The notes beneath the pieces were generated by a model. The model ran no database searches. It was not told where the DNA came from and was given only the letters and a program-made list of their open reading frames with translations. A program made the translations under genes and the position numbers. A DNA stretch of 64,000 nucleotides from Thermovibrio sp. Lineage in GTDB: Bacteria > Aquificota > Aquificia > Desulfurobacteriales > Desulfurobacteriaceae. The stretch is from contig WFNZ01000035.1 in NCBI GenBank assembly GCA_015488335.1, forward strand, positions 1-64,000. Direction: 5' to 3'. Below are positions 1-64,000 of the stretch, one piece after another (positions within the stretch are counted from its first letter, which is position 1; each line of letters begins with the position of its first letter).

Positions 1-1489
1 CGTAATCCTTATCCTCTCCGGGCCTATTGAGGTAGTTATCAACTCTGTTGTAAGAAAGGCTAAAGTACAACCTTGAAGAGAAAACTTTCAGTGGAAAAAG
101 TTGTGCCAGATTAAGTTTTCTGTCAAGTTTTAACGTATAGGAATGGACTTTCTCTTCCGAAACGGCGTGGTAAACTCCGTGCCTCTGGTAGGAGTAAGAG
201 AGTTCTGCATTCCCAAAGTGGAAATCGTGCTCAAGGGAAAACCTGATCTCCTTTGAATCTCCCCCTAAAGCAGAGCCAATAACAAAACCGTGGTAGGTAA
301 ATCCAGCAGGGTAGTTGTGGTGTGTATACCAGTAAGCAACTGAGTCAGTTGTTTCAGTATACTGAACGTTGAAATCGGTGTAACCGGTTGTAAGAGAAAG
401 ACCGGCAATGTGGCCTGAGGCAAGGGGAAGAGGGAATCCACCGGGACCTCTGGGTTTAACGGCGTCGTCTCCGCCGTAAATAAAGTAAAACTTCCCACCT
501 TTAAAGGGCTGGAACTTATACCTGTTAAGCCAGTTCATATAGTAAACAATTTCGTAGCTCATAAGCTGGTTGTTGTCATACCTTGAACCGGGTTCGTTCT
601 CCTGCTTAGCGGTAAAAACGTTCCAGTAATCGTGGAGAGAGTGGTAGTTAGGCCTACCTGAACCGCCAAACTGGATCGCCCTTGAGGCTGAAAGCTCCAG
701 ATTATCAATCCCGAACGGACGCCAGGTAAACCTCATTCCAATTACGTGGGCGTAAGAGCGGGGTCTTTCTTTCTCAAGCTGGGAGACAAAAGTTGAAATT
801 TTCCAGTCACCCAGCGGTTTTAAAAACCAGGGAAACTTTTCAAATCGGGGATTTTCCACTTTGAACATGAGCCACGGTCTGATGTTGTCTGTAAAGAGGA
901 GACCGCCGTTTGGGGGAGCTCCCCAGACAACGCTTGACTTTCCAAAAGAGACTCTAACGTTTTTCTTCTCAAAGAGGAGATAACCTCTATTAAGCCTTAC
1001 AGTTGTATTTCTAACTTCTGGTTCTAAATAGAAAACAAACCCGTCCCACTTTGCAGATGAAGAAAATCGGAACCTTCCGTTTAATCCTTCATCAATCCTA
1101 AACCCTTCGGCATAAGGGAGTTTGTAGTGTTGAGCACCAGATAGACCATAAAACTCAAAGGAAAAGTCATTTAAAGGTTTGATGTAGTTGATATCTTCTG
1201 ATCGTAAAAGTGAATCAACAACAGGTTTAAACTCCGGATAGAGTTCATCAAATATCCTTTTCGCAAGTGAAGGATCTATTTGCCTGTTATTGTAAATTTC
1301 AACAATAGCCCTTGCGAAATCTTCTTCTGTCAAAGGTCTGTAAGTAAGATCCTGCTCCCTTACAAGTCCTACCTCTTTTGCCCTTTCTAAAAGCCTATAC
1401 TCCCTCTGATAGCGTTCAAGAGGAACATAGGGGGAAGCAGCAAAAGAGGATGTAGTAAAGAGAAAAAAGAGAGCCACAACTTTTTTCAT
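1..1489 (-). CDS. Capsule assembly Wzi family outer-membrane protein (3' end cut by window)
   Basis: The frame is open from an ATG at 1487-1489 to the window edge, giving the first 496 residues. It starts with a signal peptide (MKKVVALFFLFTTSSFA, cleaved before ASPY). A helical stretch follows with R/E-rich segments (residues about 20-90), then long alternating aromatic/polar strands typical of an outer-membrane beta-barrel, including repeated SFGKSSVVWGAPPNGG-like turns. Wzi proteins anchor or assemble surface polysaccharide at the outer membrane. The ATG follows the stop codon of the small membrane-protein gene with no gap, so the two are co-transcribed. Polysaccharide export genes lie 46 kb away (47.4-51.7 kb). 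I recognise the family from overall pattern and size; the substrate is unknown. Confidence 0.7.
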   Translation of the reverse strand, partial: MKKVVALFFLFTTSSFAASPYVPLERYQREYRLLERAKEVGLVREQDLTYRPLTEEDFARAIVEIYNNRQIDPSLAKRIFDELYPEFKPVVDSLLRSEDINYIKPLNDFSFEFYGLSGAQHYKLPYAEGFRIDEGLNGRFRFSSSAKWDGFVFYLEPEVRNTTVRLNRGYLLFEKKNVRVSFGKSSVVWGAPPNGGLLFTDNIRPWLMFKVENPRFEKFPWFLKPLGDWKISTFVSQLEKERPRSYAHVIGMRFTWRPFGIDNLELSASRAIQFGGSGRPNYHSLHDYWNVFTAKQENEPGSRYDNNQLMSYEIVYYMNWLNRYKFQPFKGGKFYFIYGGDDAVKPRGPGGFPLPLASGHIAGLSLTTGYTDFNVQYTETTDSVAYWYTHHNYPAGFTYHGFVIGSALGGDSKEIRFSLEHDFHFGNAELSYSYQRHGVYHAVSEEKVHSYTLKLDRKLNLAQLFPLKVFSSRLYFSLSYNRVDNYLNRPGEDKDY

Positions 1490-1741
1490 TTATTTTTCCT
1501 CTTTACAGTATCTTTCAAGGAGCGAAGGAACGCCTAACTTATGGATAAGGATTGATGAAGGACATATACCGGTAACTGCGTAAAACATCAACATAAAGCC
1601 AACAAAAAGGGTGAAGTAGAAGAAGTATTTGTTCCCCGTTATAAGTCCTAAGAGAACGCTTCCAAAGACGAAAAAGCCGGCAAGGAAAGAGGTTATCCTC
1701 TCAACGTACCAGCTATCGGTTTTCGCTCTGTAAATCGCCAT
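1490..1741 (-). CDS. Small two-helix membrane protein (DUF2892/YgaP-membrane-domain type)
   Basis: Encodes 83 residues beginning MAIYRAKTDSWYVERI, with two adjacent hydrophobic helices (about 17-34 and 38-57) and a short basic/acidic tail. The ATG at 1739-1741 has a strong ribosome site, GAGGAGGGG, a few bases upstream. A longer reading frame extends to 1897, but it lacks such a site and overlaps the upstream gene more deeply. The pattern (short N-terminus containing ER-I, then two helices with a G-hhh-G turn) matches the DUF2892 family, whose members are often attached to rhodanese domains. Here it stands alone. It overlaps the upstream gene by 29 bases and abuts the Wzi-like gene. Function unknown. 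Confidence 0.7.
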   Translation of the reverse strand: MAIYRAKTDSWYVERITSFLAGFFVFGSVLLGLITGNKYFFYFTLFVGFMLMFYAVTGICPSSILIHKLGVPSLLERYCKEEK

Positions 1742-2447
1742 TTTTCCCCTCCTCTTGAAAGATAATTTTACAGCTATTCGGAACGGAACTGTAAAGTTCC
1801 CTTGCTCCGTAAAAACTCCCTCCGAAACAGACTCCAGAGAAATCTCCCGCAAGGTTAAAGACAAAACCGTTGTTGTTACATCCCTTAGCTCTATCAAAAG
1901 GCTTTACGTAGAAAGTATTTCCTGCCCAAGTAACAAGAACTCCATACTGACCAATCTCTCCCTTCTCAACCTCTACAGGGAAAACCCCCTTAACACTATA
2001 ATCTAACAGAAGTAAACTCCCAGGGCACTGGTAGACTTTTTGGGGAGCTCCCAAACTCTCACCAGAGAGTGAAACTTTAACAAAAGGCCACTCCATAGGA
2101 TAGAAAGTTAACAGGTAAACTTCTAATCCATTCCCTTTGGAAACAATCTTAAAAACAAGTGAAGGATAAACTAAAGGTCCATTTTTCACCTTCACAAAAT
2201 AAGAGGTCACTACTGAAGAGAGACTCTCTACCTGAGAGAGAACTTCAGTCGGAATTTCTCCCTGTTTTTTCTCTTCAGAGTCTAAATTTGTACTATTTTC
2301 AGAACTTTCTTCAGCTACAGTAGTGTTTATTTTCCCCTTAAAAGAAGCCGATGGAACAAAAGTTAACCGGTAATAGATGATATAACCTAAAGAAAAGAGT
2401 GCAATCACTAAGAATAGAGCTATAAGAATATCAATTGCTCTCTTCAT
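1713..2447 (-). CDS. Single-pass membrane-anchored protein of unknown function
   Basis: 244 residues. One N-terminal transmembrane helix (residues about 6-26, preceded by MKRA) acts as a signal anchor. A Ser/Glu-rich linker follows (about 45-70), then a soluble, presumably periplasmic domain of beta-type composition with four cysteines in its second half. I recognise no family. The gene overlaps the end of the TPR lipoprotein gene by 17 bases and the next gene by 29 bases, so translational coupling is likely. The context (TPR lipoprotein, small membrane protein, Wzi-like porin) points to an envelope role, which is inference only. Confidence 0.6.
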   Translation of the reverse strand: MKRAIDILIALFLVIALFSLGYIIYYRLTFVPSASFKGKINTTVAEESSENSTNLDSEEKKQGEIPTEVLSQVESLSSVVTSYFVKVKNGPLVYPSLVFKIVSKGNGLEVYLLTFYPMEWPFVKVSLSGESLGAPQKVYQCPGSLLLLDYSVKGVFPVEVEKGEIGQYGVLVTWAGNTFYVKPFDRAKGCNNNGFVFNLAGDFSGVCFGGSFYGARELYSSVPNSCKIIFQEEGKNGDLQSENR

Positions 2448-3252
2448 TTATCTCATCAATCTCCATTCTGGCCTTTGCCGCAAGAGGAGAATTGGGCTTT
2501 ATTTCTATACACTTTCTTAATAGCTCAACTGCTTTATTTAAATTTCCCTCTTCTCTGTAAATTTTACCAAGTTCACAGTAAGGTTGTTGGAGATCCGGAT
2601 AGAGCTCTATCAATCTGTAGTAGATTTCTTTTGCTTTTTCCGTATAACCCTCTTTTTTCAAAAGTTTCGCAAGCTCTAAATAAGCAGGAACGTAGTCACT
2701 GTTATTTCTTATAGCTAAAATCAGCTCTTTCTTCGCCTTTTCAAGGTTTCCCTGTTTTTCGTCTAAAAGAGCTAATCTGTAATAAGCTGCCTCTGGAGTT
2801 AAATAAAGGGGATTTGAAAGGGCTTTATAGTAACACTCTCTTGCTTTCTTTATATTCCCCTTCTCCTCATAGAGTATTCCCATATTAAGCCAGGCTTCTG
2901 AAAAATTTGGCTTAAGGGAGAGAGCTCTCCTCAGGTATTTCTCGGCCCTGTTAAGGTCTCCTCTTCTTATAAATGCAAGGCCTATTGCGTTGTATATTTT
3001 CGGGTCGTCTGGAGAGAGTTTTTTAGCCTTAAAGAGGTAGTTGAGGGAGAGGGGAATTTCACCAAGCTCAAGGTATGCTATACCTAACTGATAGTAGCCT
3101 TCTACCTTCTCCTTCTTACTTACTTTTTGTTTAACGGGAGGTGGAGGAGGTTCAGGTCTCCGACTCTCTCTTTTACCACTTCCCCAAAATGATGCACAGG
3201 AAGACAACGAGAGAACTACCAAAGAGATAGAGATATATCTTAAACCTCTCAT
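2431..3252 (-). CDS. TPR-repeat lipoprotein (PilF/NlpI-like)
   Basis: 273 residues. A lipoprotein signal ends in LSLSSC, with Cys19 as the predicted lipidated residue. A Pro-rich linker follows ([13 protein letters not shown]), then about six tetratricopeptide repeats from residue 50 to the end, with the usual W-LG-Y/A-P spacing (for example [20 protein letters not shown], then [20 protein letters not shown]). Such outer-membrane TPR lipoproteins act as assembly scaffolds for pili or envelope enzymes. The ATG overlaps the folE stop codon (ATGA), showing coupling. No direct evidence links it to pili; gspG at 60 kb is the only pilin-like gene in the window. Confidence 0.8.
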
Positions 3253-3812
3253 GACCTTCCTTTTATGAGGAAGAGAGCTTCCATCCTTGTGGGCTCTCTT
3301 CTCATTACACCTTTAACAGAACTGGTAACAGTGTAGGAGCCGGGTTTTTTTACTCCTCTCATTATCATACAGAGGTGCTGAGCTTCTATAACAACCATAA
3401 CACCTTTGGCTCCCAGCTTCTCCATTATGGCATCGGCTATCTGTTCTGTCATCCTCTCCTGAAGTTGAAGCCTTTTAGCGTAGACGTCAACAATACGGGC
3501 AAGTTTTGAAAGACCTGTAACTTTATTGTCTCCCGGTATGTAGGCCACATGAGCTTTTCCAAAGAAGGGGAGCATGTGGTGTTCACACATTGAGTAGATA
3601 GGGATGTCTTTAACCAGTATCATCTCATCGTATTTCTCTGTAAAGAGAACGAGGTGGTTCTCTGGGGAATCGTTGTATCCCCCTAAAACCTCCTCATACA
3701 TCTTTGCAATTCTTTTTGGTGTGTCTCTTAATCCTTCTCTGTCTGGGTCTTCTCCGATGGCAATGAGAATTTCTCTAACAGCTTTTTCTATCCTTTCCCT
3801 GTCGAATGCCAA
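3249..3812 (-). CDS. folE: GTP cyclohydrolase I
   Basis: 187 residues, normal for the bacterial homodecameric enzyme that converts GTP to 7,8-dihydroneopterin triphosphate, the first step of folate (and pterin) synthesis. The family signature is present: [20 protein letters not shown] with the zinc ligands Cys and His, and [12 protein letters not shown] with the third zinc ligand Cys near the end. The start codon is TTG, with GGAGG 8 bases upstream inside the last codons of ftsH; the gap to the ftsH stop is 3 bases. The stop overlaps the ATG of the TPR gene. No other folate gene is nearby, so its place behind ftsH probably reflects operon packing. Confidence 0.95.
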
Positions 3813-3815
3813 CTC

Positions 3816-5720
3816 TTAAGCCTCCAGCTGGGGATTGAATCCAAAACCTTCTACAGAATCGGACTTTTTCTCTTTCTCCTCTTTTTTTGAATTTCCGCCG
3901 GTAGTTCCAGAACCTCCTCCCTCCGGCGGCTCTTTAAGGAGCTCCCCGTTTATAGCCTTATCTATCTCCTCTCCCGTAAGTGTCTCCTTCTCAAGTAGAG
4001 CCCTTGCGAGATTTTCAAGCTTGTCCATGTTCTCCGAGAGGAGCTCCTTTGTCCTTTTATACGTATCGGTAATTATCCTCTTTACCTCTTTGTCAATCAA
4101 CTTCCTCATCTCTTCGCTGACAAGTTCTACAGGTTCTCCAAACTGTTCCTTTACCTTAACGGCAATCGGCCCAATCTTTTCGCTCATTCCCCACTCTGCA
4201 ACCATCTTACGGGCAATCTCTGTTGCCCTCTCTATATCGTTTCCAGCCCCCGTTGAGATAGTTCCAAGGGCAAGCTCTTCGGCAACCCTACCACCAAAGA
4301 GAACAGCAAGCCTGTCAAGGAGATACTCTTTCGTGTAAGTGTATCTATCCTCTTCAGGAAGCTGCTGGGTAATTCCCAACGCCCTTCCCCGGGGGATTAT
4401 TGTAACCTTGTGGACCTTATCGGCATTTGGGAGGAGTTTGGCAACAAGGGCGTGGCCTGCCTCGTGGTATGCAGTTGTGAGCCTCTCCTGTTCAGAGAGG
4501 ACCATACTCTTCCTCTCAATACCCATCGTTACCTTATCTTTAGCCTCTTCAAAGTCCTCCATCGTTATCTTTCCGTGGTTCTTCCTTGCGGCTATAAGGG
4601 CAGCCTCGTTAACGATGTTTGCAAGGTCGGCACCTGAAAATCCGGGGGTTGAGCGGGCTATAACTTCAAGGTCAACGTCTTCAGCCAGCGGCTTGTTCCT
4701 CGTGTGGATTTTCAGTATCTCAAGCCTTCCCTTAACGTCTGGAAGGGGAACGTGTATCTGTCTGTCAAACCTTCCAGGCCTTAAGAGGGCAGGGTCTAAG
4801 ATGTCCGGCCTGTTTGTTGCGGCTATGACGATGATTCCGTCGGAGCTCTCAAAACCGTCCATCTCAACAAGGAGCTGGTTTAGCGTCTGCTCCCTCTCGT
4901 CGTGGCCGCCGCTGATTCCCGCTCCTCTTCTCCTTCCAACGGCGTCTATCTCATCTATAAAAACGATACAGGGAGCGTGTTTCTTGGCCTGTTCAAAGAG
5001 GTCTCTAACCCTTGAAGCACCAACACCCACAAACATCTCAACAAACTCTGAACCGCTGACAGAGAGGAACGGAACGTTTGCCTCACCTGCTATGGCCTTC
5101 GCAAGAAGAGTTTTACCGGTCCCCGGCGGCCCTGCAAGGAGAACGCCTTTAGGAATTCTTCCACCAAGCTGCTGGTATTTCTTTGGGTTTTTCAGAAAGT
5201 CAACGATTTCTGAAACTTCCTCCTTAACCTCGTCTATTCCGGCAACGTCTTTAAAAGTCACTTTCGGCTTGTTATCTATGAACACTTTAGCCCTACTCTT
5301 TGCAAAGGAAAGGGCTTTGTTGCTTCCAGCACTCATCTGCCTCATCATGCTGAGCCAGAGGAGAATGAGGAAAATCATAGGAAGCCATGAAACAAGGACT
5401 GTTATATACCAGGGGCTTCCCTCTTCCGGTTTAACCTGAATCTCAACTCCCTTCTCTGCCATCTTCTTTATGATGTCGTTGTAGCCGGGGGGAAGGTATG
5501 TCTCAAACGGAACTCCCTCTTTTGTGATTCCGACAACTTTCTGTCCCTGAATTACAACTTTTTTAACCTCTCCCTTCTCTACCTGCGAAATAAACGTTGA
5601 GAAGGGTTCCTGAGAGGACTTAAGCTGGCCGGAGTTAAAGAAGTTAAATGCCAGAATAATCATTAGAGCTATGGCCAGCCAGAGGACAACATTCTTACCA
5701 ATCTCCTTCATCTTATCCAT
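3816..5720 (-). CDS. ftsH: ATP-dependent zinc metalloprotease FtsH
   Basis: 634 residues. Two N-terminal transmembrane helices (about 7-25 and 100-122) flank a periplasmic domain. The AAA+ module carries Walker A GPPGTGKT, Walker B VFIDEIDA and the second region of homology RPGRFDRQI. The M41 protease domain has the zinc site HEAGH. The C-terminal tail is Gly/Ser/Glu-rich. FtsH degrades misfolded membrane proteins and regulators at the inner membrane. I chose the ATG at 5718-5720 because GAAGGAG lies 6 bases upstream; an earlier TTG at 5735 in the same frame has no such site. The gene overlaps hpt by 8 bases (ATGGATAA). The hpt-ftsH order is common in bacteria. Confidence 0.97.
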
Positions 5721-6261
5721 TCTCTGCTCCTTCAAAATATCCTATAAATGGTAAACCTCTAAATGTCTCATTTAAATCTAAGCCGTATCCAACAACAAAG
5801 CAGTTAGGAATTTTAAAGCCGATGAAATCGGGGCGAATCTCTACTCTTTTAGGGACTTCCTTATCTAAGAGGACACAGGTTTTCACCTTTGAAGCTCCCA
5901 TCTTTAAAACTTCTCTGTATGCAGCCTCCAAACTCTCTCCTGTATCAAAGATATCGTCAACTATGAGGACTTCTCTTCCCGTTAAGTCCACTTCCGGCCG
6001 GTAGGTTATCTCAACCTCTCCTTTCTCTTTCCCTCTGTAGCTTTTAAGCCTCATAAAGGCAACTTCCGTTTCAGCCTCCATCTCTCTGATGAGGTCTGCA
6101 GTAAAGACAAAGGCCCCTTTAAGAAGGGAGACAACAACTATACTGCCTGAAAAGTGTTTAGGTATCTCCTCTCCAAGCTCCTTAACTCTCTTCCTTATCT
6201 CTCTCTCTTCTATCAGGACTTTCAGCTTTTCTTTCAAGCTCAACTCCGACAAAATCTCCAT
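5713..6261 (-). CDS. hpt: Hypoxanthine phosphoribosyltransferase
   Basis: About 182 residues. The PRPP-binding loop VLIVDDIFDTGESL is diagnostic for type I phosphoribosyltransferases, and the flexible-loop region FMRLKSYRGKEKGEV plus the C-terminal GFKIPNCFVVGYGLDLNE and LPFIGYF match hypoxanthine/guanine transferases. It salvages hypoxanthine/guanine to IMP/GMP. The start is uncertain: the frame is open upstream to 6324, but homologous sequence begins only around KVLIEEREI, so I use the ATG at 6259-6261; nearby TTG codons are possible. Even so it overlaps tilS by 80 bases, which is large. The tilS-hpt-ftsH order is a classic bacterial arrangement. Confidence 0.9.
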   Translation of the reverse strand: MEILSELSLKEKLKVLIEEREIRKRVKELGEEIPKHFSGSIVVVSLLKGAFVFTADLIREMEAETEVAFMRLKSYRGKEKGEVEITYRPEVDLTGREVLIVDDIFDTGESLEAAYREVLKMGASKVKTCVLLDKEVPKRVEIRPDFIGFKIPNCFVVGYGLDLNETFRGLPFIGYFEGAENG

Positions 6262-7540
6262 CTGTTCCCGTTCTGCGGGTGTAGAGCTCCGGAATGAAAA
6301 CGACCTCTCCGTTGAACTCAACAACCGGAATGAGGTCTCTCAGGTGGGCAGGAAACCGCTTCTCTATGAGGAACTTCTTGAGGGGCTTTGAAAAGCCCTT
6401 AAACCTGAGCCTGTCTCCCGGCTTCCTGCTCCGAACAATTATACCGGCACTCCGAAACGAAGAGAGGGGAACAACGGGAGTGCCTGAGTTAGCGGAAAAT
6501 TTAAGGGTATAGAGCGGTGTTTCAACCGTTAAAGGGAGCTCCTTCACCTCGTAGTAAAAACCCCTTTTCTTTTCCTTTCTCTCCGGCTCAATGCAGAGAA
6601 CTTCCTGAGTTTTATAAACAGCAACTCCCCTGTGGAAGGAGAACCTCTTAAACCCGCTCTTTTTAACGGCCTCCTTCAGTTCCTCAACGCTTCTGTAGGA
6701 AAGGTCTTTACCGGAAACCCTTCTGTAAGCCTTCCTCAGAACTTCAGAGAGGAGAAAGGGGTGGAGCTCCCTCAAAACCTCTATAGGAATGCAGAAAGAA
6801 CCATCTTTAAGATACTCTGAAACAATTGGTTCCACCTGACTTTCCACAAAATCTTCAAGCTCTCTCAAAAGGGCCGTTTCCCTGAGAACTGCCTCCTCTA
6901 AAGAAGGGTTTATCCTCTTTAGAACGGGAACAACCTCAAGCCTTATAAGGTTCCTGTCGTAGTCGGTCTTAAGGTTTGAGCTGTCAACAACGAAGGGCAG
7001 ATTGTTCTCCTCAACGTAGGCCTCAACCTCTTTTCTTGTAACGAGGAAGAGGGGACGGACGAAAACTTCTCTCTTTGGAAGAAATCCCCTCAATCCTTTA
7101 ATTCCGGAACCTTTTGTAAGGTTTAGAAGAACTGTCTCTGTAAGGTCTGAAGCTGTATGGCCGAGGGCCACAAAGTCTCCATTCCACTCTTTCAGAGCTT
7201 CTCTAAAAAGCCTGTATCTCTCCCTTCTTGCAACGGCTTCTACGTTCTTACCTCCTGAAATCTCGGAAATATTAACCCTTTTAACGATGAGTGGAACGTT
7301 CCAGTTCCTGCAGAGCTCCCTTACAAAGGCCTCATCTCTATCAGACTCCTCTCCCCGAAGCATATGGTTAACGTGAACGGCCCCAACGGTAAGGTTCATC
7401 TCTTTTTTGAGGGAGAGGAGAATGTGAAGAAGGGTAATTGAGTCGGGGCCTCCTGAAAGGGCTACGAGGATTTTAGAGTTTTCGGGAAATAGGGAAAACC
7501 TGGCGATTGCCTCCCTGACTTTTAATTGAACGTTCTCCAT
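6182..7540 (-). CDS. tilS: tRNA(Ile)-lysidine synthetase
   Basis: 452 residues. The N-type ATP-pyrophosphatase motif ALSGGPDSITLLH lies near residue 30. It is followed by the conserved VNHMLRGEESDRDEAFV, VALGHTASDLTETVLLNLTKGSGIKGLRG and RPLF segments that define TilS, then the long C-terminal substrate-recognition region. The enzyme converts C34 of tRNA-Ile(CAU) to lysidine so that it reads AUA. I start at the ATG at 7538-7540 (MENVQLKV); the frame is open further upstream, but that would run into the tRNA-Met gene. The 3' end overlaps hpt. A CAU-anticodon tRNA gene lies 21 bases upstream, but its features fit elongator Met better than the lysidine substrate. Confidence 0.95.
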   Translation of the reverse strand: MENVQLKVREAIARFSLFPENSKILVALSGGPDSITLLHILLSLKKEMNLTVGAVHVNHMLRGEESDRDEAFVRELCRNWNVPLIVKRVNISEISGGKNVEAVARRERYRLFREALKEWNGDFVALGHTASDLTETVLLNLTKGSGIKGLRGFLPKREVFVRPLFLVTRKEVEAYVEENNLPFVVDSSNLKTDYDRNLIRLEVVPVLKRINPSLEEAVLRETALLRELEDFVESQVEPIVSEYLKDGSFCIPIEVLRELHPFLLSEVLRKAYRRVSGKDLSYRSVEELKEAVKKSGFKRFSFHRGVAVYKTQEVLCIEPERKEKKRGFYYEVKELPLTVETPLYTLKFSANSGTPVVPLSSFRSAGIIVRSRKPGDRLRFKGFSKPLKKFLIEKRFPAHLRDLIPVVEFNGEVVFIPELYTRRTGTDGDFVGVELERKAESPDRRERDKEES

Positions 7541-7561
7541 AGGCCGGGTAAAAAAGAAAAT

Positions 7562-7638: not shown

Positions 7639-7677
7639 ACTTGCAGGAAAGAAATATAGCCCAGCAGGTGTTAAGTG

Positions 7678-12043: not shown

Positions 12044-12072
12044 AGTCTCTCCAAATATTCCGTTCTATTTAT

Positions 12073-12101: not shown

Positions 12102-12137
12102 GCAAAATCTAGGAGTCTTTAAAATCCCAGTAAGTGG

Positions 12138-36234: not shown

Positions 36235-36260
36235 AAAGGGGGAGCTCCCTCCCCCTTTTC
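36235..36260 (+). terminator. Rho-independent terminator of the sucCD-korDABC operon
   Basis: A perfect 10-bp stem, AAAGGGGGAG with CTCCCCCTTT, closes a CTCC loop and runs into TTTT-C. The loop-side sequence embeds a GGAGCTCC palindrome, one of the few non-coding copies of the iterated motif. Confidence 0.85.
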
Positions 36261-54522: not shown

Positions 54523-54538
54523 CTATAATTCCCCCGCT
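54523..54538. promoter_or_regulatory. Extremely short divergent control region between trkA and murJ
   Basis: Only 16 bases separate the TTG of trkA from the ATG of murJ. They contain a perfect TATAAT on the plus strand (54524-54529) ending 9 bases before murJ, and TATAGT on the minus strand overlapping the trkA start. No ribosome site fits before murJ, so a leaderless or near-leaderless transcript is possible. Confidence 0.45.
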
Positions 54539-56050: not shown

Positions 56051-56809
56051 ATGCACCCGATACTCTTTAAAATCGGCCCCATTACCATCTACACTTACGG
56101 AGTGATGGTTGCTTTAGGGATTTTCTTCGGCTCCCTCGTCTTAGTTAAGCTCTCAGAGAGGGAGGGAATCAGGAGGGAAGACGTTGTTGACATAGCATTC
56201 TGGAGCATCGTTGCAGGCTTCATTGGTGCAAGGCTCTTCTTTTTCCTCTACAACCCAGAGTATCTAAAACCCTGGTATAGAATCTTCTTCGTCTGGGAAG
56301 GGGGACTTGTCTGGTACGGTGGGGTGGTATTTGGAGCTCTCACCGCCATCTACTTCATCGTAAAGAGGAAAATCCCCGTCTGGAGGTTTGCAGACGCAAT
56401 AGCAATTGCCCTCTCAGTTGGCCTCGGTTTTGGAAGGATAGGCTGCACCATGGCCGGATGCTGCTACGGAAAGGTGTGCCACGCCCCCTTTGCCATCGTC
56501 TTCACAAATCCCCACTCTGCAGCCCCTTTAAACGTTCCCCTCTGGCCAACAGAACCAATTTCCTCAGCCGCCAACTTCCTCATAGCATTTATCCTCTATC
56601 TCCTTTATAAAAGGAGAAAAACTCCGGGGGAAATTTTCGGTTTCTATTTGATTTTCTACGGAATTTTCCGGTTCTTGATAGAGTTTGTGAGGGCAACCCC
56701 AAAAGAGATACTTGGAACCTTCAGCAACAACCAGGTAATAAGTATTATAATGGTCGCCGCAGGAATAGTTATCGTTATCTACAGGAGAAAAAGAACGGAG
56801 GAAGTATAA
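56051..56809 (+). CDS. lgt: Prolipoprotein diacylglyceryl transferase
   Basis: 252 residues with seven or so transmembrane segments. Family motifs are FKIGPITIYTYGVMVALGIFFG, FIGARLFFFLYNPEY, WEGGLVWYGGVVFG, LGFGRIGCTMAGCCYGKVC and PTEPISSAANFLIAF with the final RFLIEFVRA. It attaches diacylglycerol to the lipobox cysteine of lipoproteins such as those at 2.4 kb and 28.6 kb. The short NGE-lacking variant GCTMAGCCYG replaces the HGNF-type motif of enterobacteria, as in several other phyla. Confidence 0.94.
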   Translation: MHPILFKIGPITIYTYGVMVALGIFFGSLVLVKLSEREGIRREDVVDIAFWSIVAGFIGARLFFFLYNPEYLKPWYRIFFVWEGGLVWYGGVVFGALTAIYFIVKRKIPVWRFADAIAIALSVGLGFGRIGCTMAGCCYGKVCHAPFAIVFTNPHSAAPLNVPLWPTEPISSAANFLIAFILYLLYKRRKTPGEIFGFYLIFYGIFRFLIEFVRATPKEILGTFSNNQVISIIMVAAGIVIVIYRRKRTEEV

Positions 56810-57724
56810 ATGGGAAGGTTTGCCTACTTTGAGGGAAGGTTTGTCCCCATTGAAGAGGCCAACATAAACATACAGACAAACTCTTTCCACTACGGAACGG
56901 CAGTTTTTGAGGGGATAAGGGCCTACTGGAACGAGGAGAAGAAACAGCTCTTCGGCCTCTTCGTTAAGGAGCACTACGAAAGGATGCTTGCAAACTGCAA
57001 AATCCTGAACCTGAAGGTTGAAAAGAGCGCAGAGGAGCTCACAGAAATCACAGTTGAGCTCTTAAGGAAGTGTGGCCACAAGGAGGATACATACATAAGG
57101 CCCATAGCCTACTTTGCAGATCTTAAAATCTCTCCAAAGCTCGTAGGCTACAGAACGGAAATCGCCATTTACACGGTTCCCCTGGGAGACTACTTAGACC
57201 TCTCAAGGGGGCTAAAGGCAAAAACCTCAAGCTGGCACAGGATAAACGACACGATGATTCCTGCAAGGTGTAAGGTTGCAGGAGCATACGTAAACAGCGC
57301 CTTTGCAAAAACCGAAGCACTCTTGAACGGATACGACGAAGCCATAATGCTCAACCCCGACGGAACTGTGGCAGAGGGAAGCGGAGAGAACGTATTTATA
57401 GTGAGGAACGGAAAACTGATAACTACTCCATCGGCCTCAAACATCTTAGAAGGAATCACGAGGAATGCAGTAATTGAACTTGCAAGGAATGAATTAGGAA
57501 TAGAGGTTGAAGAGAGACCCATCTTAAGGAGCGAACTCTACGTTGCAGACGAAGTCTTCTATACGGGAACGGCAGCACAGGTTGCTCCGGTTGTTCAGGT
57601 TGACCACGTTGTTATAGGAAACGGAGAGATAGGTCCCATTACAAAAAGGCTTCAGGAGGTTTACTTCTCAATAGTTAAGGGAGAGAACGAAAAATACTCC
57701 CACTGGCTAACTCCCGTTTACTGA
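56810..57724 (+). CDS. ilvE: Branched-chain amino acid aminotransferase
   Basis: 304 residues, normal length. It has NSFHYGTAVFEGIRAYW, RPIAYFAD, the PLP-lysine region IPARCKVAGAYVNSAFAKTEALLNGYDEAIMLN, EGSGENVFIV and TGTAAQVAPV, all fold-type IV family marks. It makes or degrades valine, leucine and isoleucine. GGAGGAAGTATAA precedes the ATG. A toxin-antitoxin-like pair follows 6 bases after its stop. Confidence 0.96.
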   Translation: MGRFAYFEGRFVPIEEANINIQTNSFHYGTAVFEGIRAYWNEEKKQLFGLFVKEHYERMLANCKILNLKVEKSAEELTEITVELLRKCGHKEDTYIRPIAYFADLKISPKLVGYRTEIAIYTVPLGDYLDLSRGLKAKTSSWHRINDTMIPARCKVAGAYVNSAFAKTEALLNGYDEAIMLNPDGTVAEGSGENVFIVRNGKLITTPSASNILEGITRNAVIELARNELGIEVEERPILRSELYVADEVFYTGTAAQVAPVVQVDHVVIGNGEIGPITKRLQEVYFSIVKGENEKYSHWLTPVY

Positions 57725-57730
57725 TTCAAG

Positions 57731-58030
57731 ATGAAAGTAAGGCTTTCCGATGCAGAGTTAAGGGCAATAAAGGAAACTGTAAGGGAAGTTTTTGGAGAAA
57801 GGGCAAGGGTCTGGCTCTTTGGCTCAAGGGTTAGAAAGGAACTTAAAGGTGGAGACATTGACCTGTTTATTGAAGTTCCCAAAGGGGAGAGGAACCCTGA
57901 GAAGAAGGTTAAGTTCCTTGTAAAGCTTAAGGAGAGGATAGGGGAACAGAAAATTGACCTGATTGTGAAAGAGGAGGGGGAGAGCGATTTTATATCTTTA
58001 GAAGCAAAGAGGACAGGAGTTGAACTTTGA
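57731..58030 (+). CDS. mntA: MntA-type nucleotidyltransferase antitoxin
   Basis: 99 residues. The minimal nucleotidyltransferase motif is intact: WLFGSRVRKELKGGDIDLFIE, with Gly31-Ser32 and Asp42-x-Asp44 (GSx9DxD), and a third acidic residue in KIDLIVKE. In characterised pairs MntA adds AMP groups to the HEPN toxin's tyrosine and silences it. The next gene, coupled by a TTGA overlap, encodes that HEPN protein. The pair is inserted between ilvE and the RACo-like gene, reading in the same direction with no separate promoter visible. Confidence 0.88.
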   Translation: MKVRLSDAELRAIKETVREVFGERARVWLFGSRVRKELKGGDIDLFIEVPKGERNPEKKVKFLVKLKERIGEQKIDLIVKEEGESDFISLEAKRTGVEL

Positions 58031-58485
58031 AAGACTTGCGAAGGGTTTTAAGGGAGATAGAAAAACATAAGGAACGGCTCTTATACGCAAAAAATAAGAT
58101 AGAGAAATGGGGAGAACTCTCTCCTCAAACCCTTGAAGACCCGGAAAAAGTTGAAACGATAGACTCTTTCATTTTCAGGTTCTCAAAACTTCAAGACTCA
58201 ATAGGACAGAAACTCTTTCCTCTAACCCTTGAGTTTTTAGGAGAAGAGGTAAGAAGTAAACCGTTTATCGACATACTGAACCGCCTTGAACAGCTTGAGC
58301 TGATAGAGTCGGCAGAGAAGTGGAAAGAGCTGAGGGAGCTCCGCAACCCCTTAACCCATACATACCCCTGGGAAAAAGAGGAGCTCATTGAAAACCTTAA
58401 GCTTGCCCTTAAAAGGTCGGAAGAGCTCGTGTCAACCCTTGAAAGATTCAAAGAGTTCCTGCGAAAGAGAGGTTTGAAAGCTTGA
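58027..58485 (+). CDS. hepT: HepT-type HEPN toxin
   Basis: 152 residues, a bit longer than typical HepT. The HEPN ribonuclease motif Rx4HxY is complete: Arg106-NPLT-His111-Thr-Tyr113, inside RELRNPLTHTYPWEKEEL. Mostly helical. HepT cleaves RNA; the tyrosine is the site modified by MntA. The start is TTG overlapping the mntA stop, and its stop overlaps the next gene's TTG. The N-terminal extension (about 1-45, Lys/Glu-rich) is outside the usual core. It is otherwise an ordinary member of the family. Confidence 0.85.
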   Translation: MKDLRRVLREIEKHKERLLYAKNKIEKWGELSPQTLEDPEKVETIDSFIFRFSKLQDSIGQKLFPLTLEFLGEEVRSKPFIDILNRLEQLELIESAEKWKELRELRNPLTHTYPWEKEELIENLKLALKRSEELVSTLERFKEFLRKRGLKA

Positions 58486-59915
58486 AATTAAAAGTCTCCG
58501 TTCCTGAAGGGAAAACTCTTTATCAGGTTCTCAGGGAAAAGGGATTTATGCGCTCCGCCTACTGCGGAGGCAGGGGAATATGCGGAAAGTGTATCGTTAA
58601 GGTAGGCGAGAAAGAGGAACTTGCCTGTCTGCTCTTCGGCCCCTTTGAGGGGGAGGTGGAAATCCCTGAGGAGAACCTGATTTCAAAGGGAGAAGCTCTC
58701 CCCGACATCCCCGTTGAAAGCAGAGAAGGGTTTGGAGTTGCCGTTGACCTTGGAACAACAGGCGTTGAGGCGGCACTCTTTGACCTCTCAAACGGTAAGT
58801 TCATAAAAAGCCTGAAAACCCTCAACTTCCAGTCTGCGTTTGGAGCAGACGTTGTAACGAGGGTTGAGCTTGCAAGGGAGAACTACGGCAAGGAGAGGGA
58901 GCTCCTCTTAAAAACTCTCTCGTTCCTGTTTAAGGAGCTGGGAACTCCTGTAAAAGAAGTAGTGGTCGTCTCAAACTCCGTCATCCACCACTTCCTCTTA
59001 GGGCTTCCCGTTTCAGGGTTTGAGAGGTTTCCCTTTAAACTTGAACTTGAAGAGGAGGTCTATACAACGGGAAGAGAGCTGGGGTTAGAAGGGTTTGAGG
59101 AGATCGTTTTTTACGTTCCACCGCCGTTAAAGAGCTTCATAGGTTCAGACTTCCTCTCAAACCTCTTAGTTCTAACGAAGGAGAGCTCCAACTTTGGAGT
59201 TGCAGACCTTGGAACAAATGCTGAGATGGGCATCTGGAAAGAGGGCGAAGGGGTTGCAGCTTCAGTCCCTGCAGGACCTGCCTTTGAAGGGGTTGGCCTC
59301 TTCTCCGGAATGAGGGCCGTTGAAGGAGCCATATACAAGGTCTTCTTTGACGGAAGGGACTTTAGGTTTCTGACGATTGGGAACAGAGAACCGTTAGGGA
59401 TATGCGCAAGCGGCTACTTTGACCTGATTTACCTCTTAAAGAGCTTCAGAGTCCTGACAGAGGAAGGAACGATAAGAGCAGAGAACATCCCGCCACTGAT
59501 AGCCCAGAGGATAAAGGAAATAAACGGGGAAAGGGCCTTTGTCCTATATGAAACCGAAGATGTCCTGATTGCCTTGACTCAAAGCGACATCAGGAAGTTC
59601 CTCCTGGCAAAGGGAGCCGTTTACGGAGCTTTCAAAACCCTCTCAGAGGAGGCGGGAGCTCCAGAAGAACTCTTCTTCTCCGGAGCCTTTGGAAGCCACA
59701 TAGACAGAAGGAGCGTTAAGGGGCTGAAACTGATTCCGGGGAACTTCCCCGAGCCCGTCGCAGCCGGAAACTTAGCCCTTAAAGGAGCCTCACTGCTCCT
59801 TGGAAGGAGAGAGGAGAGGGAAAAAATTAAGGAGATAAAGAGGGCTGTTCAGCCCGTTGAGCTTGCAACGAACAAAACCTTTGAAAAGGCCTACATTGAA
59901 GGGATGGAGCTGTGA
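58482..59915 (+). CDS. 2Fe-2S ferredoxin-ASKHA protein (RACo-like corrinoid-activation type)
   Basis: 477 residues. An N-terminal plant-type 2Fe-2S domain has Cys28, Cys34, Cys37 and Cys49 (YCGGRGICGKC, LACL). A DUF4445/ASKHA ATPase follows, with the phosphate motifs VAVDLGTTGVEAALFDL, FGVADLGTNAEMGIW and FSGAFGSHIDRRSVKGLKLIP. RACo-type proteins reactivate oxidised corrinoid enzymes (corrinoid Fe-S protein or methyltransferases) using ATP and electrons. The target is not in the window. The start is TTG, overlapping the hepT stop. Confidence 0.85.
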   Translation: MKLKVSVPEGKTLYQVLREKGFMRSAYCGGRGICGKCIVKVGEKEELACLLFGPFEGEVEIPEENLISKGEALPDIPVESREGFGVAVDLGTTGVEAALFDLSNGKFIKSLKTLNFQSAFGADVVTRVELARENYGKERELLLKTLSFLFKELGTPVKEVVVVSNSVIHHFLLGLPVSGFERFPFKLELEEEVYTTGRELGLEGFEEIVFYVPPPLKSFIGSDFLSNLLVLTKESSNFGVADLGTNAEMGIWKEGEGVAASVPAGPAFEGVGLFSGMRAVEGAIYKVFFDGRDFRFLTIGNREPLGICASGYFDLIYLLKSFRVLTEEGTIRAENIPPLIAQRIKEINGERAFVLYETEDVLIALTQSDIRKFLLAKGAVYGAFKTLSEEAGAPEELFFSGAFGSHIDRRSVKGLKLIPGNFPEPVAAGNLALKGASLLLGRREEREKIKEIKRAVQPVELATNKTFEKAYIEGMEL

Positions 59916-60166
59916 GACCCCTAATAAAAGGAAGAAATTTGGTTTACAGAGTTAACCCCAAAGACATAGCTTTTATAAACGCCGTTTTTGAGTGGTTCCA
60001 CGAAGTTGCAACGGTCAGAACCAGAGACCCGAAAGAGGGACTGATAGAGCTCTGGATAGCCCCCGACTTCTTTGACGATGCGATGAAGGCAGTTGAACAC
60101 CTTAAGAACTTCGTTGATAAAATGGAGTTCGTAGAAGAGGTGGGAGATAACTGGTGGAGAGAATAG
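59912..60166 (+). CDS. DUF4911-type small protein
   Basis: 84 residues from a GTG overlapping the RACo-like gene's stop. The pattern LVYRVNPKDIAFINAVFEWFHEVATVRTRDPKEGLIELWIAPDF is an alpha-beta fold of the DUF4911 family, as far as I recall. This family is found in anaerobes and has no known function. Immediate neighbours are the RACo-like protein and gspG. Confidence 0.6.
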   Translation: MRPLIKGRNLVYRVNPKDIAFINAVFEWFHEVATVRTRDPKEGLIELWIAPDFFDDAMKAVEHLKNFVDKMEFVEEVGDNWWRE

Positions 60167-60177
60167 AGGAGGTCAAG

Positions 60178-60585
60178 TTGGAGAGGAGAAAGAGAAAAGG
60201 TTTTACGCTCCTTGAGCTGATGATTGTAATCATCATTTTAGGAATGCTTGCAGGTCTCATAGGACTCAAGCTCATAAAGAGGGGGGAAGAGGCAAAGGTT
60301 ACCCTCACCCAGGTTCAGATGAAGAATTTAGAGGAAGCCCTGAACCTCTACAAGCTCCACAACTCACTCTACCCTACAACTGAACAGGGGCTTAAAGCCC
60401 TGGTTGAGAAACCGAAAATTGAACCGATACCTAAAAACTGGAAAGGGCCCTACATAGAGAAAGTTCCAAAAGACGCCTGGGGGAACGACTTTATCTACAT
60501 CTCAGACGGTAAACACTTTACACTCATCTCCCCCGGCCCCGACGGAGAAGAGGGGACAGACGACGACCTGAAGGTGAGCCAGTAA
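60178..60585 (+). CDS. gspG: Type II secretion major pseudopilin GspG
   Basis: 135 residues from a TTG with GAGGAGG 5 bases upstream; a GTG at 60154 is in frame but has no site. A short basic leader (MERRKRKG) ends at the prepilin cleavage site before FTLLELMIVIIILGMLAGL. The C-terminal domain has the GspG features YPTTEQGLKALVEKP and PKDAWGNDFIYISDG with the Ca-binding end SPGPDGEEGTDDDL. It builds the pseudopilus for protein export. It is isolated here: no other gsp genes are in the window. Confidence 0.93.
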   Translation: MERRKRKGFTLLELMIVIIILGMLAGLIGLKLIKRGEEAKVTLTQVQMKNLEEALNLYKLHNSLYPTTEQGLKALVEKPKIEPIPKNWKGPYIEKVPKDAWGNDFIYISDGKHFTLISPGPDGEEGTDDDLKVSQ

Positions 60586-61307
60586 TGGTCGTCTACGGCG
60601 TAAACCCCGTTGCAGAGGCGATAAGGGCCGGGTATCCGATACTGAAGATTTACGTTGACGAGCACTTCAGGGACAGGGAAAAGGTCTTAAAACTTGCTAA
60701 AGAGAACGGAATAAAGGTAGTTAAGGCCTCTAAGAAGAAGCTGAAGGAAATTTCTAAAACGGAAAAACACCAGGGGATTGTTGCCATCGTCTCCCCCGTT
60801 GAGCCCGTTGATTACGGGGAGCTTGTTGAAAAAACGATTTCTGAAAACGGTTATCTCCTCTTTTTAGACCGGATAGAAGACCCCCACAACCTTGGAGCTC
60901 TCTTCCGTTCGGCAGATGCGTTCAGAGTAACAGGAATAGTTCTTCCTAAAGACAGGAGCGCAACGATAACAGAAACGGTTGTTAAAGCATCAACAGGAGC
61001 GGTTTTCTACGTTCCTTTTTCTGTTGTAAACAGCTTTTCAACAGCCCTCAAAGAGTTTAAGGAATCGGGTGGCTGGCTTGTCGGCCTTGAGGCAGGGGGA
61101 AAACCGCTCAGTAAGTTCAGCTTTCCCTTTCCTTTAGGACTTGTTGCAGGTTCAGAAGGGAGGGGAATTTCAAGGAGCACGATGAAGCTCCTTGACGAAG
61201 TTGTTGAGATAGAGATGGGAGGACACGTTAACTCTCTCAACGTCTCAAACGCCGTAGCAATTGGACTGTATAGAGTTTTCACAGAAAGGTTCATTTTAAA
61301 CGGCTGA
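60585..61307 (+). CDS. rlmB: 23S rRNA (guanosine-2'-O-)-methyltransferase RlmB (SpoU family)
   Basis: 240 residues. The N-terminal substrate domain begins VVYGVNPVAEAIRAG. The SPOUT methyltransferase domain has FLDRIEDPHNLGALFRSADAF, LVAGSEGRGISRSTMKLLDEVVEI and MGGHVNSLNVSNAVAIGLYRV, the three SpoU motifs. It methylates G2251-type ribose in 23S rRNA. The ATG overlaps the gspG stop (TAATG). Confidence 0.93.
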   Translation: MVVYGVNPVAEAIRAGYPILKIYVDEHFRDREKVLKLAKENGIKVVKASKKKLKEISKTEKHQGIVAIVSPVEPVDYGELVEKTISENGYLLFLDRIEDPHNLGALFRSADAFRVTGIVLPKDRSATITETVVKASTGAVFYVPFSVVNSFSTALKEFKESGGWLVGLEAGGKPLSKFSFPFPLGLVAGSEGRGISRSTMKLLDEVVEIEMGGHVNSLNVSNAVAIGLYRVFTERFILNG

Positions 61308-61353
61308 AAAACTAAATTATTCTGGGAATAAAATCGGAACTTCAGGAGGAGAG

Positions 61354-61755
61354 ATGGAAGAGCTCAAGGGTAAGCTTGTCTTTGTTCAGACCTCAGGAGG
61401 AGAAGGCGCAGTTCCAACCTCTGGAATTTTAGGAGTGGTTGAAGAGATTACCCCCGAGTTTGTAAAGCTCAAGGAAGCCGGAGTTTTTGCACTTCTTCCC
61501 ACAACAAAGGGAGCTCAGGCAACAATCATGCCCCTTGACCCAACGGCAAACGAGCCTGTAGAGGCCTACCTGGTTAAGTCTCAAATCGTTGCAATCGTTC
61601 CCGTTGGAGACAGGTCAAGGCTCAAGGAGTTCCACCAGCAGTTTAAGGCCGCCGCTGCCGGAATAGAGCTCCCCAGCGCCGGAGCAATAGATATGTCTAA
61701 ACTGAAAGAATTTCCAAAAGGCGGAGGAAACAAGGGAGGGCTCTCCATAACTTAG
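61354..61755 (+). CDS. Conserved-looking protein of unknown function
   Basis: 133 residues with no signal peptide or transmembrane helix. An N-terminal small beta domain (ELKGKLVFVQTSGG, GVVEEITPEFVKLKEAGVFALL) resembles an Sm- or SH3-like barrel. A helix-like segment follows (RLKEFHQQFKAAAAG), then a Gly-rich end. I recognise no family. AGGAGGAGAG precedes the ATG. It is bounded by a hairpin after its stop and a TAAAAT -10 in the 46-base gap before it, so it may be a monocistronic, well-expressed gene. Confidence 0.6.
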   Translation: MEELKGKLVFVQTSGGEGAVPTSGILGVVEEITPEFVKLKEAGVFALLPTTKGAQATIMPLDPTANEPVEAYLVKSQIVAIVPVGDRSRLKEFHQQFKAAAAGIELPSAGAIDMSKLKEFPKGGGNKGGLSIT

Positions 61756-61779
61756 TGGGGAGTCCCTTTCCCCACTTTC
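61754..61779 (+). terminator. Hairpin after the 61.4-kb unknown gene
   Basis: AGTGGGG pairs with CCCCACT around a nine-base loop and is followed by TTC-A. The stem starts within the stop codon. The T-tract is short, so it may be a weak terminator or attenuator before the histidine kinase gene. Confidence 0.55.
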
Positions 61780-61789
61780 AGGAAAAGAG

Positions 61790-62770
61790 ATGAACGTTGA
61801 GTTTGAAGATCTGCTCTTCTCACTACCCTTTCCAGCGGTAATAACCGACGAGCTTGGGAAAATCCAGAAGGTTAACCAGAAGTTTGAGTCCCTATCAAAC
61901 AGGTCGTTCAAGTTCCTGAAAGGGAGAAACATTTCTGAGGTTTTAAGGATTGAGGAGCTCCCCTCCCTCATAGAGAAATCCTACAGGGAGACGATAGAGA
62001 TAAGGGGCTTCAGGAAAGGAGAGCTCATCTTCCACATCTCTCCTCTCTTCACGCCGTCAAAAAAGGTCGGAGTTGTAGTTCTCATAGAGCCGTGCAGCCT
62101 CTCACCCTTTGAGGAGGACATAACGCTGTTCCTTAAAGGCCTCTCCCACGAGATAAAGAACCCTTTAAGCGGGATAAAGGGAGCTGCAAAACTCTTCAAA
62201 GAACTGAAGAGCTACGATGAGGAGCTTGCACAGGTTATAGTTGACGAGGTTGAAAGGATAGAGAGGCTCTTAAAGGACATCACAAGGAGCTTTGACTTCT
62301 CAAAGCTCTCTTTCAGAAACGAGAACATCCACAAAATAATCCAGCAGGTCTTCAACCTCTTTGCACATCAGATTAGTGAAAAGGGTATTAAGGTAAACTT
62401 CCTCTTTGACCCGTCCCTGCCGGAAGTTCCCGTTGACGTTGATAAGATGACTCAGGCAGTCTTAAACGTTGTTAAAAACGCCATAGAGGCCGTTGAGGAG
62501 TCTGAGGTTAAAGAGATAACAGTTGAAACGGGATACGCCATAAGGCCGTCGGGGTTTATCTTCATAAAGGTTAAAGACACCGGAAGAGGGATGGACGGGG
62601 AGGAGATTAAGAAGTTCGGCCTCCCCTTTTTCACGACGAAGGAAAAGGGCTCGGGGCTGGGAAGTTTTATAGTTAAAGAGGTCATAAAGGGCCACGGTGG
62701 GGAGGTTAAGGTGGAGAGCTCCCCCGGAAAAGGCACGTCGGTTAAACTTCTAATCCCGATGAAGAGGTAG
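61790..62770 (+). CDS. NtrB-type sensor histidine kinase
   Basis: 326 residues, soluble. A PAS domain (about 10-105: PFPAVITDELGKIQKVNQKFESLS) is followed by the HisKA phosphorylation site GLSHEIKNPLSGIKGAAKLF, then an HATPase domain with the N box NVVKNAIEAV, G1 DTGRGM and G2 GSGLGSF. It phosphorylates the adjacent NtrC-family regulator. The architecture matches NtrB (GlnL) of nitrogen control, but no glnA or glnB is in view. Confidence 0.92.
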   Translation: MNVEFEDLLFSLPFPAVITDELGKIQKVNQKFESLSNRSFKFLKGRNISEVLRIEELPSLIEKSYRETIEIRGFRKGELIFHISPLFTPSKKVGVVVLIEPCSLSPFEEDITLFLKGLSHEIKNPLSGIKGAAKLFKELKSYDEELAQVIVDEVERIERLLKDITRSFDFSKLSFRNENIHKIIQQVFNLFAHQISEKGIKVNFLFDPSLPEVPVDVDKMTQAVLNVVKNAIEAVEESEVKEITVETGYAIRPSGFIFIKVKDTGRGMDGEEIKKFGLPFFTTKEKGSGLGSFIVKEVIKGHGGEVKVESSPGKGTSVKLLIPMKR

Positions 62771-62772
62771 TC

Positions 62773-64000
62773 TTGGCAAGGATACTGATTGCAGACGACG
62801 AGAAGAGCATAAGAATAGTCCTTAAGAAGTTCCTCACTTCCCGGGGACACGAGGTTTTAGAGGCTGAAAACGGGAAAGAAGTCCTTGAAATCCTGAAAGA
62901 GGAACCGGTTGACCTTGTCTTCTTAGACCTTAAGATGCCCAAACTCGGCGGCCTTGAAGTCCTTGAGAAGGTAAAAGGAGTTCCCGTTGTTGTTCTAACG
63001 GCCTACGGAACTATGGACTACACCGTAAAGGCTATAGAGCTTGGGGCTGCAGACTACATAACAAAACCTTTTTCATTTGAGGAGATAAGCGAAGTCCTGA
63101 AGAAACTCTTAACAAAGAGGGAGGAAAAGGGAAAGGAGAAAGAGCCGGAGTCGGGAATTGTCGGAAGCAGCAAGGTTATGCAGGAGGTCTTTAAGACCGT
63201 TGCAAAGGTTGCAAGGAGCTCCATAACCGTTCTGATAACGGGGGAGAGCGGAACGGGGAAAGAAGTTATAGCAAGGGCCATCCACAACTACTCAGACAGG
63301 AGAAACAAGCCCTTTGTTGCCGTCAACTGTGCAGCCCTCCCTGCAAATCTCTTAGAGGCCGAGCTTTTTGGATACGAAAAGGGGGCATTTACGGGGGCAG
63401 TCTCCTCAAAGAAGGGCCTTTTTGAGCAGGCAAACGGCGGAACCATATTCCTTGATGAGATAGGGGAGCTCCCCCTGCCACTTCAGGCAAAACTCTTAAG
63501 GGTTCTTCAGGAAAAAGAGATAAGGCCAATTGGAAGCGAAAGGAGCAGAAAAATAGACGTAAGGGTGATAGCGGCAACAAACAGGAATTTAGAAGAGGAG
63601 GTTAAAAAGGGAACGTTCAGGGAAGACCTCTACTTCAGGCTCAACATAGTTAAGATAGAGCTCCCCCCTCTAAGGGAGAGGAAGGAGGACATCGTTCCAC
63701 TTGCCCACCACTTCATAAGGCGCTTTTCAAAGGAGTTCAAGCTACCCCCGAAAGAGCTGTCGGCAGACGCCGTTGAGTTCCTCCTCTCCTACCACTTCCC
63801 GGGAAACGTGAGAGAGCTTGAGAACATGGTTCTGAGGGCAATGGTTCTCTCCCCCTCAAACCTCATAACGGCAGAGGATTTAAAGAGGCAGGCCTACCAG
63901 GAAGCTCCAACCCTTGAGAGTTTGATAAGAGAGTTTGTTCTAAAGGTCTTCTCCGTTGAACAGAAGGAGAAGAACAACCTTTACGACATTGTTGTAAAGG
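62773..64000 (+). CDS. NtrC-family sigma-54-dependent response regulator (cut by window end)
   Basis: About 409 residues are present, open at the window edge. The start is TTG, 2 bases after the kinase stop, with GAAGAGG 5 bases upstream inside the kinase gene. The receiver domain (about 1-118) has DDEKS, the phospho-acceptor in VFLDLKMP and KPFSFEE. The AAA+ domain (about 135-365) has [21 protein letters not shown] (the GAFTGA loop contacts sigma-54), [14 protein letters not shown] and a final [17 protein letters not shown]. The C-terminal DNA-binding helix-turn-helix lies beyond the window. With the kinase it forms a two-component pair acting on sigma-54 promoters. Confidence 0.94.

Follow-up and report, generated by a model that had tools for sequence, protein, structure and literature searches.

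A 64,000-nucleotide stretch of Thermovibrio sp. DNA (positions 1 to 64,000 of contig WFNZ01000035.1, assembly GCA_015488335.1; the window) is pervaded by the palindrome GGAGCTCC, which occurs 1,451 times in the whole assembly (1,645,081 bases, 99.3% complete), or once per 1,134 bp. The host, a thermophilic vent bacterium, is a member of the family Desulfurobacteriaceae in the phylum Aquificota. These data suggest a highly iterated palindrome (HIP)-class element outside the cyanobacteria, of consensus RGAGCTCY, that is kept by a symmetric factor acting on each site autonomously, most likely through biased repair or conversion; we give this reading a probability of roughly 55%. What is new is a HIP-like element in a non-cyanobacterial phylum whose carriers share no methyltransferase among the classes scanned here. 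In the 2015 survey, HIPs were all cyanobacterial and all accompanied by methyltransferases (PMC4390886), and cause and correlate were therefore inseparable. HIP1-like behaviour in another phylum, patchy among sister genera, is a natural experiment on cause, and a comparison of which genes carriers and non-carriers possess offers a route to the factor behind the motif.

Enrichment beyond codon usage

The window holds 139 copies of GAGCTC (dinucleotide-shuffle mean 25.2, largest 40) and 57 of the octamer (mean 1.79, largest 6), one hexamer more than the 138 and 57 counted by hand in a first-pass annotation of this DNA. Across the window genome (assembly G000; genus g1) the densities are about 881-882 per Mb for GGAGCTCC and 2,030 per Mb for GAGCTC, and the reversed control CCTCGAGG has 0 copies in the whole assembly. 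Within the window the copies are placed as follows.

915..63472, no strand: 57 GGAGCTCC within 139 GAGCTC, across the entire window; a subset of the 1,451 in the genome
915..922, no strand: first octamer in the window, within a truncated open reading frame (ORF), complement of 2..1489
63465..63472, no strand: last octamer in the window, from the octamer count

By simple composition the excess in the window is 10.8-fold for the hexamer and 85-fold for the octamer, much as the ten-fold and eighty-fold first estimated, but these folds are too high because codon usage accounts for part of the excess. Codon nulls were run on 350 kb of the window genome (290 ORFs, simple ORF calls). The ORFs of this sample contain 275 octamers, compared with 25.5 under a synonymous codon shuffle within genes and a mean of about 44-47 (46.7 ± 5.4, maximum 55) under a junction-preserving null, in which codons could trade places only where both the residue and the adjoining bases were identical. 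The excess over the latter is 2.1-fold for the hexamer and 5.9-fold for the octamer, and GGAGCTCC ranks first among all 8-mers for over-representation (z 34). Every reading phase is enriched over this null, with 37 copies observed vs 8.7 as GGA GCT CCx, 22 vs 1.5 as xGG AGC TCC, and 216 vs 36.5 as xxG GAG CTC Cxx. Strictly non-coding DNA (15.8 kb) holds 12 octamers where 0.3-0.6 are expected; a looser non-coding set, with some truncated or short ORFs included, holds 34 in 42.7 kb. Among the one-off variants of the octamer, AGAGCTCC alone is clearly enriched (2.4-fold) and GGAACTCC slightly (1.2-fold), the remainder occurring at or under expectation. Nor is the hexamer avoided in the manner of a restriction site, at 710 copies in the sample vs 192 by a second-order Markov model.

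These counts leave it hardly credible that the word arises simply from purine-rich coding together with a preference for the codons GAG and CTC. Codon usage does raise the expected number of octamers in the window from <1 to about 5-7, but the junction-preserving shuffles, the enrichment in all phases and in non-coding DNA, and the flank dependence at a fixed dipeptide described below refute this explanation. The first-pass annotation had likewise argued that codon preference could not be the whole cause and that all three phases are used; the codon-shuffled null that it proposed does not reproduce the counts, and enrichment in one phase only is ruled out.

Symmetric recognition of RGAGCTCY

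The sequence context of synonymous choices reveals what is recognized. In the window genome, GAG CTC encodes 218 of 245 Glu-Leu dipeptides (89%) flanked by G..C, 136 of 226 with other R..Y flanks, and 81 of 605 (13%) with non-R..Y flanks, an odds ratio of 52 at a fixed dipeptide (P 1e-100). The same dependence is found in the relatives G002, G004, G017, and G021 (odds ratio 19-31) and in the window by itself (37/42 vs 23/122). Gly-Ala is written GGA GCT in 90% of cases before CC and 82% before CT, falling to 0-33% before the remaining pairs of bases, while Ser-Ser appears as AGC TCC in 59% of cases after GG, 35% after AG, and 0-14% in the remaining contexts. The flank dependence of all three dipeptides therefore means that at least 8 bases, RGAGCTCY, are read; these data show that at least 8 bp are recognized symmetrically, with GGAGCTCC the strongest form of the consensus.

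In a logistic fit the immediate flanks carry nearly the whole signal (area under the curve 0.873 vs 0.881 with five bases per side), and the third base out on each side shows a slight, symmetric bias; the second base beyond the octamer is C in 53% vs 30%. An origin as a repeat element was rejected, the flanks being near background beyond ~3 bp. Being its own reverse complement, the motif offers no orientation to read, unlike an asymmetric recombination or segregation site such as Chi.

Site-by-site occupancy and its effect on proteins

Synonymously reachable sites are filled, by phase, in 37 of 41 (90%), 215 of 322 (67%), and 22 of 62 (35%) cases, compared with null occupancies of 0.23, 0.10, and 0.02; in two phases out of three the filled sites are the majority. 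The effect extends to the proteins themselves. In the window genome 26% of Gly-Ala dipeptides precede Pro or Leu, compared with 12% in relatives that lack the motif (P 1.6e-5). A residue with a possible C-starting codon comes after Glu-Leu in 34% vs 23% of cases (P 1e-4). For six control dipeptides, no significant residue shift was seen against the same relatives. A genome-wide word that changes amino-acid choice matters for codon-usage and molecular-evolution studies of these genomes.

Codons within the octamer are also better conserved. Scored between congeneric species at the same residue, over three pooled species pairs that are not fully independent, CTC is kept in 122/140 cases inside the octamer vs 1155/1811 elsewhere (P 3e-9), GAG in 118/135 vs 2497/3419 (P 9e-5), and GCT in 22/23 vs 572/1040 (P 5e-5). 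Whether a reachable site is occupied is uncorrelated with how many motifs lie within 1 kb (rho 0.003, P 0.94), and occupancy drops only with a neighbour at <100 bp (0.47 vs about 0.6). Octamers per gene follow a Poisson distribution (dispersion 1.0), and the gaps between copies are slightly more even than random (coefficient of variation 0.91 vs 0.99, one-sided P 0.06). The occupancy and Poisson counts fit a site-by-site process better than selection for regular coverage.

These observations bear on the proposal that the word is bound by a nucleoid or chromosome-maintenance protein, with weak selection on every copy. The symmetric 8-bp core with its weak outward extension is dimer-like, and the conserved codons and slight evenness of spacing would be in keeping with a bound protein; however, near-saturation irrespective of neighbours suggests no diminishing return with local density, and no candidate protein was found. 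We consider this explanation plausible in outline and somewhat unlikely overall.

Copies outside genes

The only intergenic octamer of the window, once ORF limits were checked, is that at 36241-36248, which lies in the following feature.

36238..36258, + strand: terminator-like hairpin GGGGGAGCTCCCTCCCCC then CTTTT, fold z = -3.86, with octamer 36241-36248 at the tip

The earlier placement of the motif in a terminator stem-loop thus agrees with the fold (z about -3.9). Intergenic octamers stand at the tips of GC-rich terminator-like hairpins (GGGGGAGCTCCC...CCCC-TTTT) at window 36238-36258 and in three further loci, L046, L058, and L059.

Several copies in terminator-like hairpins, a frequency of about one per kb, and a patchy distribution in relatives would fit a DNA uptake signal spread by molecular drive in natural transformation. 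But GGAGCTCC is palindromic and uptake sequences are not, and its non-coding density of 758 per Mb is not above the 881 per Mb found overall, whereas uptake sequences exceed expectation there (PMC1939737). We regard an uptake signal as very improbable.

Distribution in Desulfurobacteriaceae and other Aquificota

The family survey comprised 22 Desulfurobacteriaceae genomes from seven genera. LepA of the window genome has 99% identity to that of the Thermovibrio sp. metagenome-assembled genome (MAG) S141_83 and 94% to that of another Desulfurobacteriaceae MAG; in its flanking DNA, S141_83 matches the window at 73-92% identity, so it is related but belongs to another species. Copies of GGAGCTCC per genome number 683-1,451 in g1, 457-787 in g6 (one genome 62% complete), 327-1,257 in g7, 44-169 in g2, and 4-17 in g3, g4, and g5. 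Of the seven genera, three therefore carry the motif strongly and one more weakly, and in the other three it is absent or depleted. The g2 genome G008 retains the hexamer effect (GAGCTC 49 vs 17.8), while in the sampled loci of g3 and g4 (L073-L080; G009, G013) GAGCTC falls under the codon null (3 vs 12.4, 9 vs 16.4), a depletion opposite to the pattern of the window's genus.

Other Aquificota families have <180 copies per genome, with the sole exception of G065 (407). The sampled loci of this genome (L165-L168) contain 145 GAGCTC vs 75 and 27 AGAGCTCT vs 6.6, a moderate RGAGCTCY excess that is possibly an independent or a shared case. Loci from other phyla (78, 1.4 Mb) carry 7.7 GGAGCTCC per Mb.

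Further words were noted in these lineages. The Thermovibrio ammonificans HB-1 plasmid NC_014917.1 (76,561 bp; a contig of G018; L150-L153) is not enriched in GGAGCTCC (14 vs 12.2 in ORFs); it is enriched in GAAGCTCC (71 vs 15.8) and in GAGCTTCC, the complement of GGAAGCTC (59 vs 14.8), and contains the 9-mers GGAAGCTCC (32 copies) and CTGCCCGCAG (29 copies). These are possibly a related word one base longer, or may be specific to the plasmid. The reversed word CCTCGAGG is frequent, at 160-374 per genome, in G027, several g10 genomes, G130, G132, and G133, from two other Aquificota families; it was rejected as a second HIP, as codon usage explains most of it in stretches of G044, G045, and G130 (5 vs 2.4, 5 vs 3.9, 18 vs 9.5). 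GATC is strongly under-represented in every sampled genus, e.g. 369 vs 1112 in G000 and 5 vs 224 in G013.

Methyltransferases of the scanned classes do not follow the motif

HIPs were defined as a class with a matching methyltransferase in every carrier examined (Elhai 2015, PMC4390886), and methyl-directed mismatch repair has been proposed as their source (Elhai, PMC4390886). Four Pfam models (PF00145, PF01555, PF02086, PF02384) were scanned over all 22 family genomes. PF00145 (C5) enzymes were detected in none of the g1 or g6 genomes and, within g7, in G019 only; PF02086 was absent from g1 except for one weak, short fragment in G005. The window genome has three PF01555 enzymes, namely an orphan CcrM-like enzyme and two that lie beside MjaI-type and TaqI-type endonucleases. 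The most telling genome is G002 (99% complete, 1,309 copies of GGAGCTCC), which has no PF01555, PF02086, or PF00145 enzyme. Its PF02384 matches are a 493-aa HsdM (type I) and two weak, fragmentary hits in ORFs of 250 and 295 aa. Similar ORFs recur throughout the family, and their size leads us to read them as methyltransferases of RNA or protein, for instance PrmC. The targets of type I HsdM are as a rule bipartite and asymmetric. Overall, no methyltransferase of the four scanned classes is common to the high-motif genomes among the 22.

The orphan CcrM-like adenine methyltransferase (L005:1405-2250, G000:C26) adjoins a histidyl-tRNA-synthetase-like gene, hisZ-type by sequence, and occurs also in G004, G005, G007, and G008. 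It was rejected as a partner of the motif, its presence across genomes not tracking GGAGCTCC, as was the TaqI-type methyltransferase, with close matches only in G000 and G020. The MjaI-type and TaqI-type restriction-modification pairs (L006 and L007; G000:C70 and G000:C43) have, by family, the expected sites CTAG and TCGA, which are nearly absent from the 350 kb (26 vs 1691 by a first-order Markov model, and 20 vs 1114). The sole PF02384 match of G000 is a weak 54-position N6_Mtase match (G000:C20:3177-3392) in a 1,289-aa ORF; ORFs of comparable length correspond to it in G001 and G007, and it might encode a type IIG or BREX-like enzyme.

We therefore weigh a methylation-linked HIP as envisaged by Elhai, in which a methyltransferase for GAGCTC or AGCT would be followed by methyl-directed mismatch repair that makes and keeps the sites. 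The kind of palindrome, its density, and its saturation are as in HIP1, whose carriers all had a matching methyltransferase (PMC4390886), and G000 does possess the CcrM-like orphan. Against this stand the lack of C5 enzymes in g1 and g6, the 1,309 copies in a genome with only a type I HsdM among the scanned classes, and the failure of the CcrM-like and TaqI-type enzymes to track the motif. We judge this explanation unlikely. Methylation had been among the roles first suggested, along with a search for an orphan methylase; that search leads to the CcrM-like enzyme, which does not follow the motif across genomes, and with no C5 enzyme in the window's genus and no beta-, D12-, or N6_Mtase-class enzyme common to high-motif genomes, the suggestion finds no support.

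A proposed site-autonomous process

We propose that a symmetric, probably dimeric, putative DNA-recognizing factor acts on every site individually, and that a biased repair or conversion step would create or protect RGAGCTCY. A close alternative is that the bound factor may confer a small benefit per site, in chromosome structure or maintenance. Biased repair or conversion is slightly favoured over selection on the bound site because it is naturally local, would act equally within and between genes, and would push residues as well as codons. If the sites are at equilibrium, log-odds of about 4 would imply a scaled bias or selection near 4. Nothing observed for GGAGCTCC requires sequence-specific methylation of the HIP1 kind.

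Several points weigh against biased repair or conversion acting site by site. The analysis turned up no factor, and moving from site-autonomous action to repair or conversion is itself an inference. Polarised counts of gain and loss comprise too few events to part drive from selection, and the slight evenness of gaps (P 0.06) would agree with a role in spacing. Carriers might also have a methyltransferase from a family beyond the four scanned, or one that falls in the gaps of draft assemblies. We tentatively raise the broader idea that a methylation-independent, site-autonomous drive alters proteins in this thermophile family and that HIP1 may be a second instance, with methylation incidental, though we would not yet bet on it.

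Comparison with HIP1 and other known systems

HIP1 was described in 1995. As a yardstick, the same scripts were applied to 200 kb of Trichormus variabilis plasmid A (NC_007410), where HIP1 (GCGATCGC) occurs at 640 per Mb, with 105 copies in ORFs vs 2.7 expected. Both elements are perfect 8-bp palindromes of at least 75% GC that recur about once per kb, both between genes and, within them, in every reading frame; HIP1 is found once per 1,131 bp in Synechocystis 6803 (PMC6604393), vs 1,134 bp for the octamer here. Reachable sites are saturated to a similar degree, at 0.79, 0.63, and 0.31 by phase for HIP1 and 0.90, 0.67, and 0.35 for GGAGCTCC, and the majority of one-off variants are unenriched in both, those of HIP1 being mostly close to expectation or under it, apart from changes of the outermost base and one other variant. 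The likeness to HIP1 drawn in the first-pass annotation thus holds, under the same code, for density, occupancy by phase, unenriched variants, and presence outside genes. The two differ in sequence and phylum, and HIP1 carriers have core methyltransferases (PMC4390886) where none is common to GGAGCTCC carriers. HIP1 proper was accordingly rejected, this being GGAGCTCC in Aquificota and not GCGATCGC in a cyanobacterium.

With respect to the HIP class as a whole, GGAGCTCC is the dominant word, as the top 8-mer (z 34), and 6 of its 8 bases are G or C, in line with the threshold of at least 75% GC (PMC4390886). The class density is roughly 1000-2000 per Mb, with GAGCTC at 2,030 and the octamer, at 882, just below the range. 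No methyltransferase common to the carriers emerged from the four-Pfam scans of the 22 genomes; we therefore call the element HIP-like and do not file it with the methyltransferase-linked HIPs.

In the open-licence literature searched, no paper was found to report GGAGCTCC as an iterated word. GGAGCTCCW, a word from Azotobacter (PMC4465626), was set aside as a different motif, being printed as the 3'-5' complement of CCTCGAGGA. A SacI-type restriction site shares the hexamer core GAGCTC, but here the hexamer is enriched rather than avoided and the genome has no C5 methyltransferase; a SacI-type endonuclease was not searched for. The uptake signal sequences and DNA uptake sequences (USS/DUS) of Pasteurellaceae and Neisseriaceae are likewise short words that recur at intervals of about 1 kb, have some copies in terminator hairpins, and vary between relatives, but they are non-palindromic and commoner outside genes than expected (PMC1939737). 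The alternate cyanobacterial HIPs (GGGATCCC, GGCGCC, GCSGC, RCCGGY; Elhai 2015) are also GC-rich palindromes that have been gained and lost between relatives, replacing HIP1 in certain lineages; unlike GGAGCTCC, all are cyanobacterial, and the lineages in which a HIP was replaced gained or already had matching methyltransferases.

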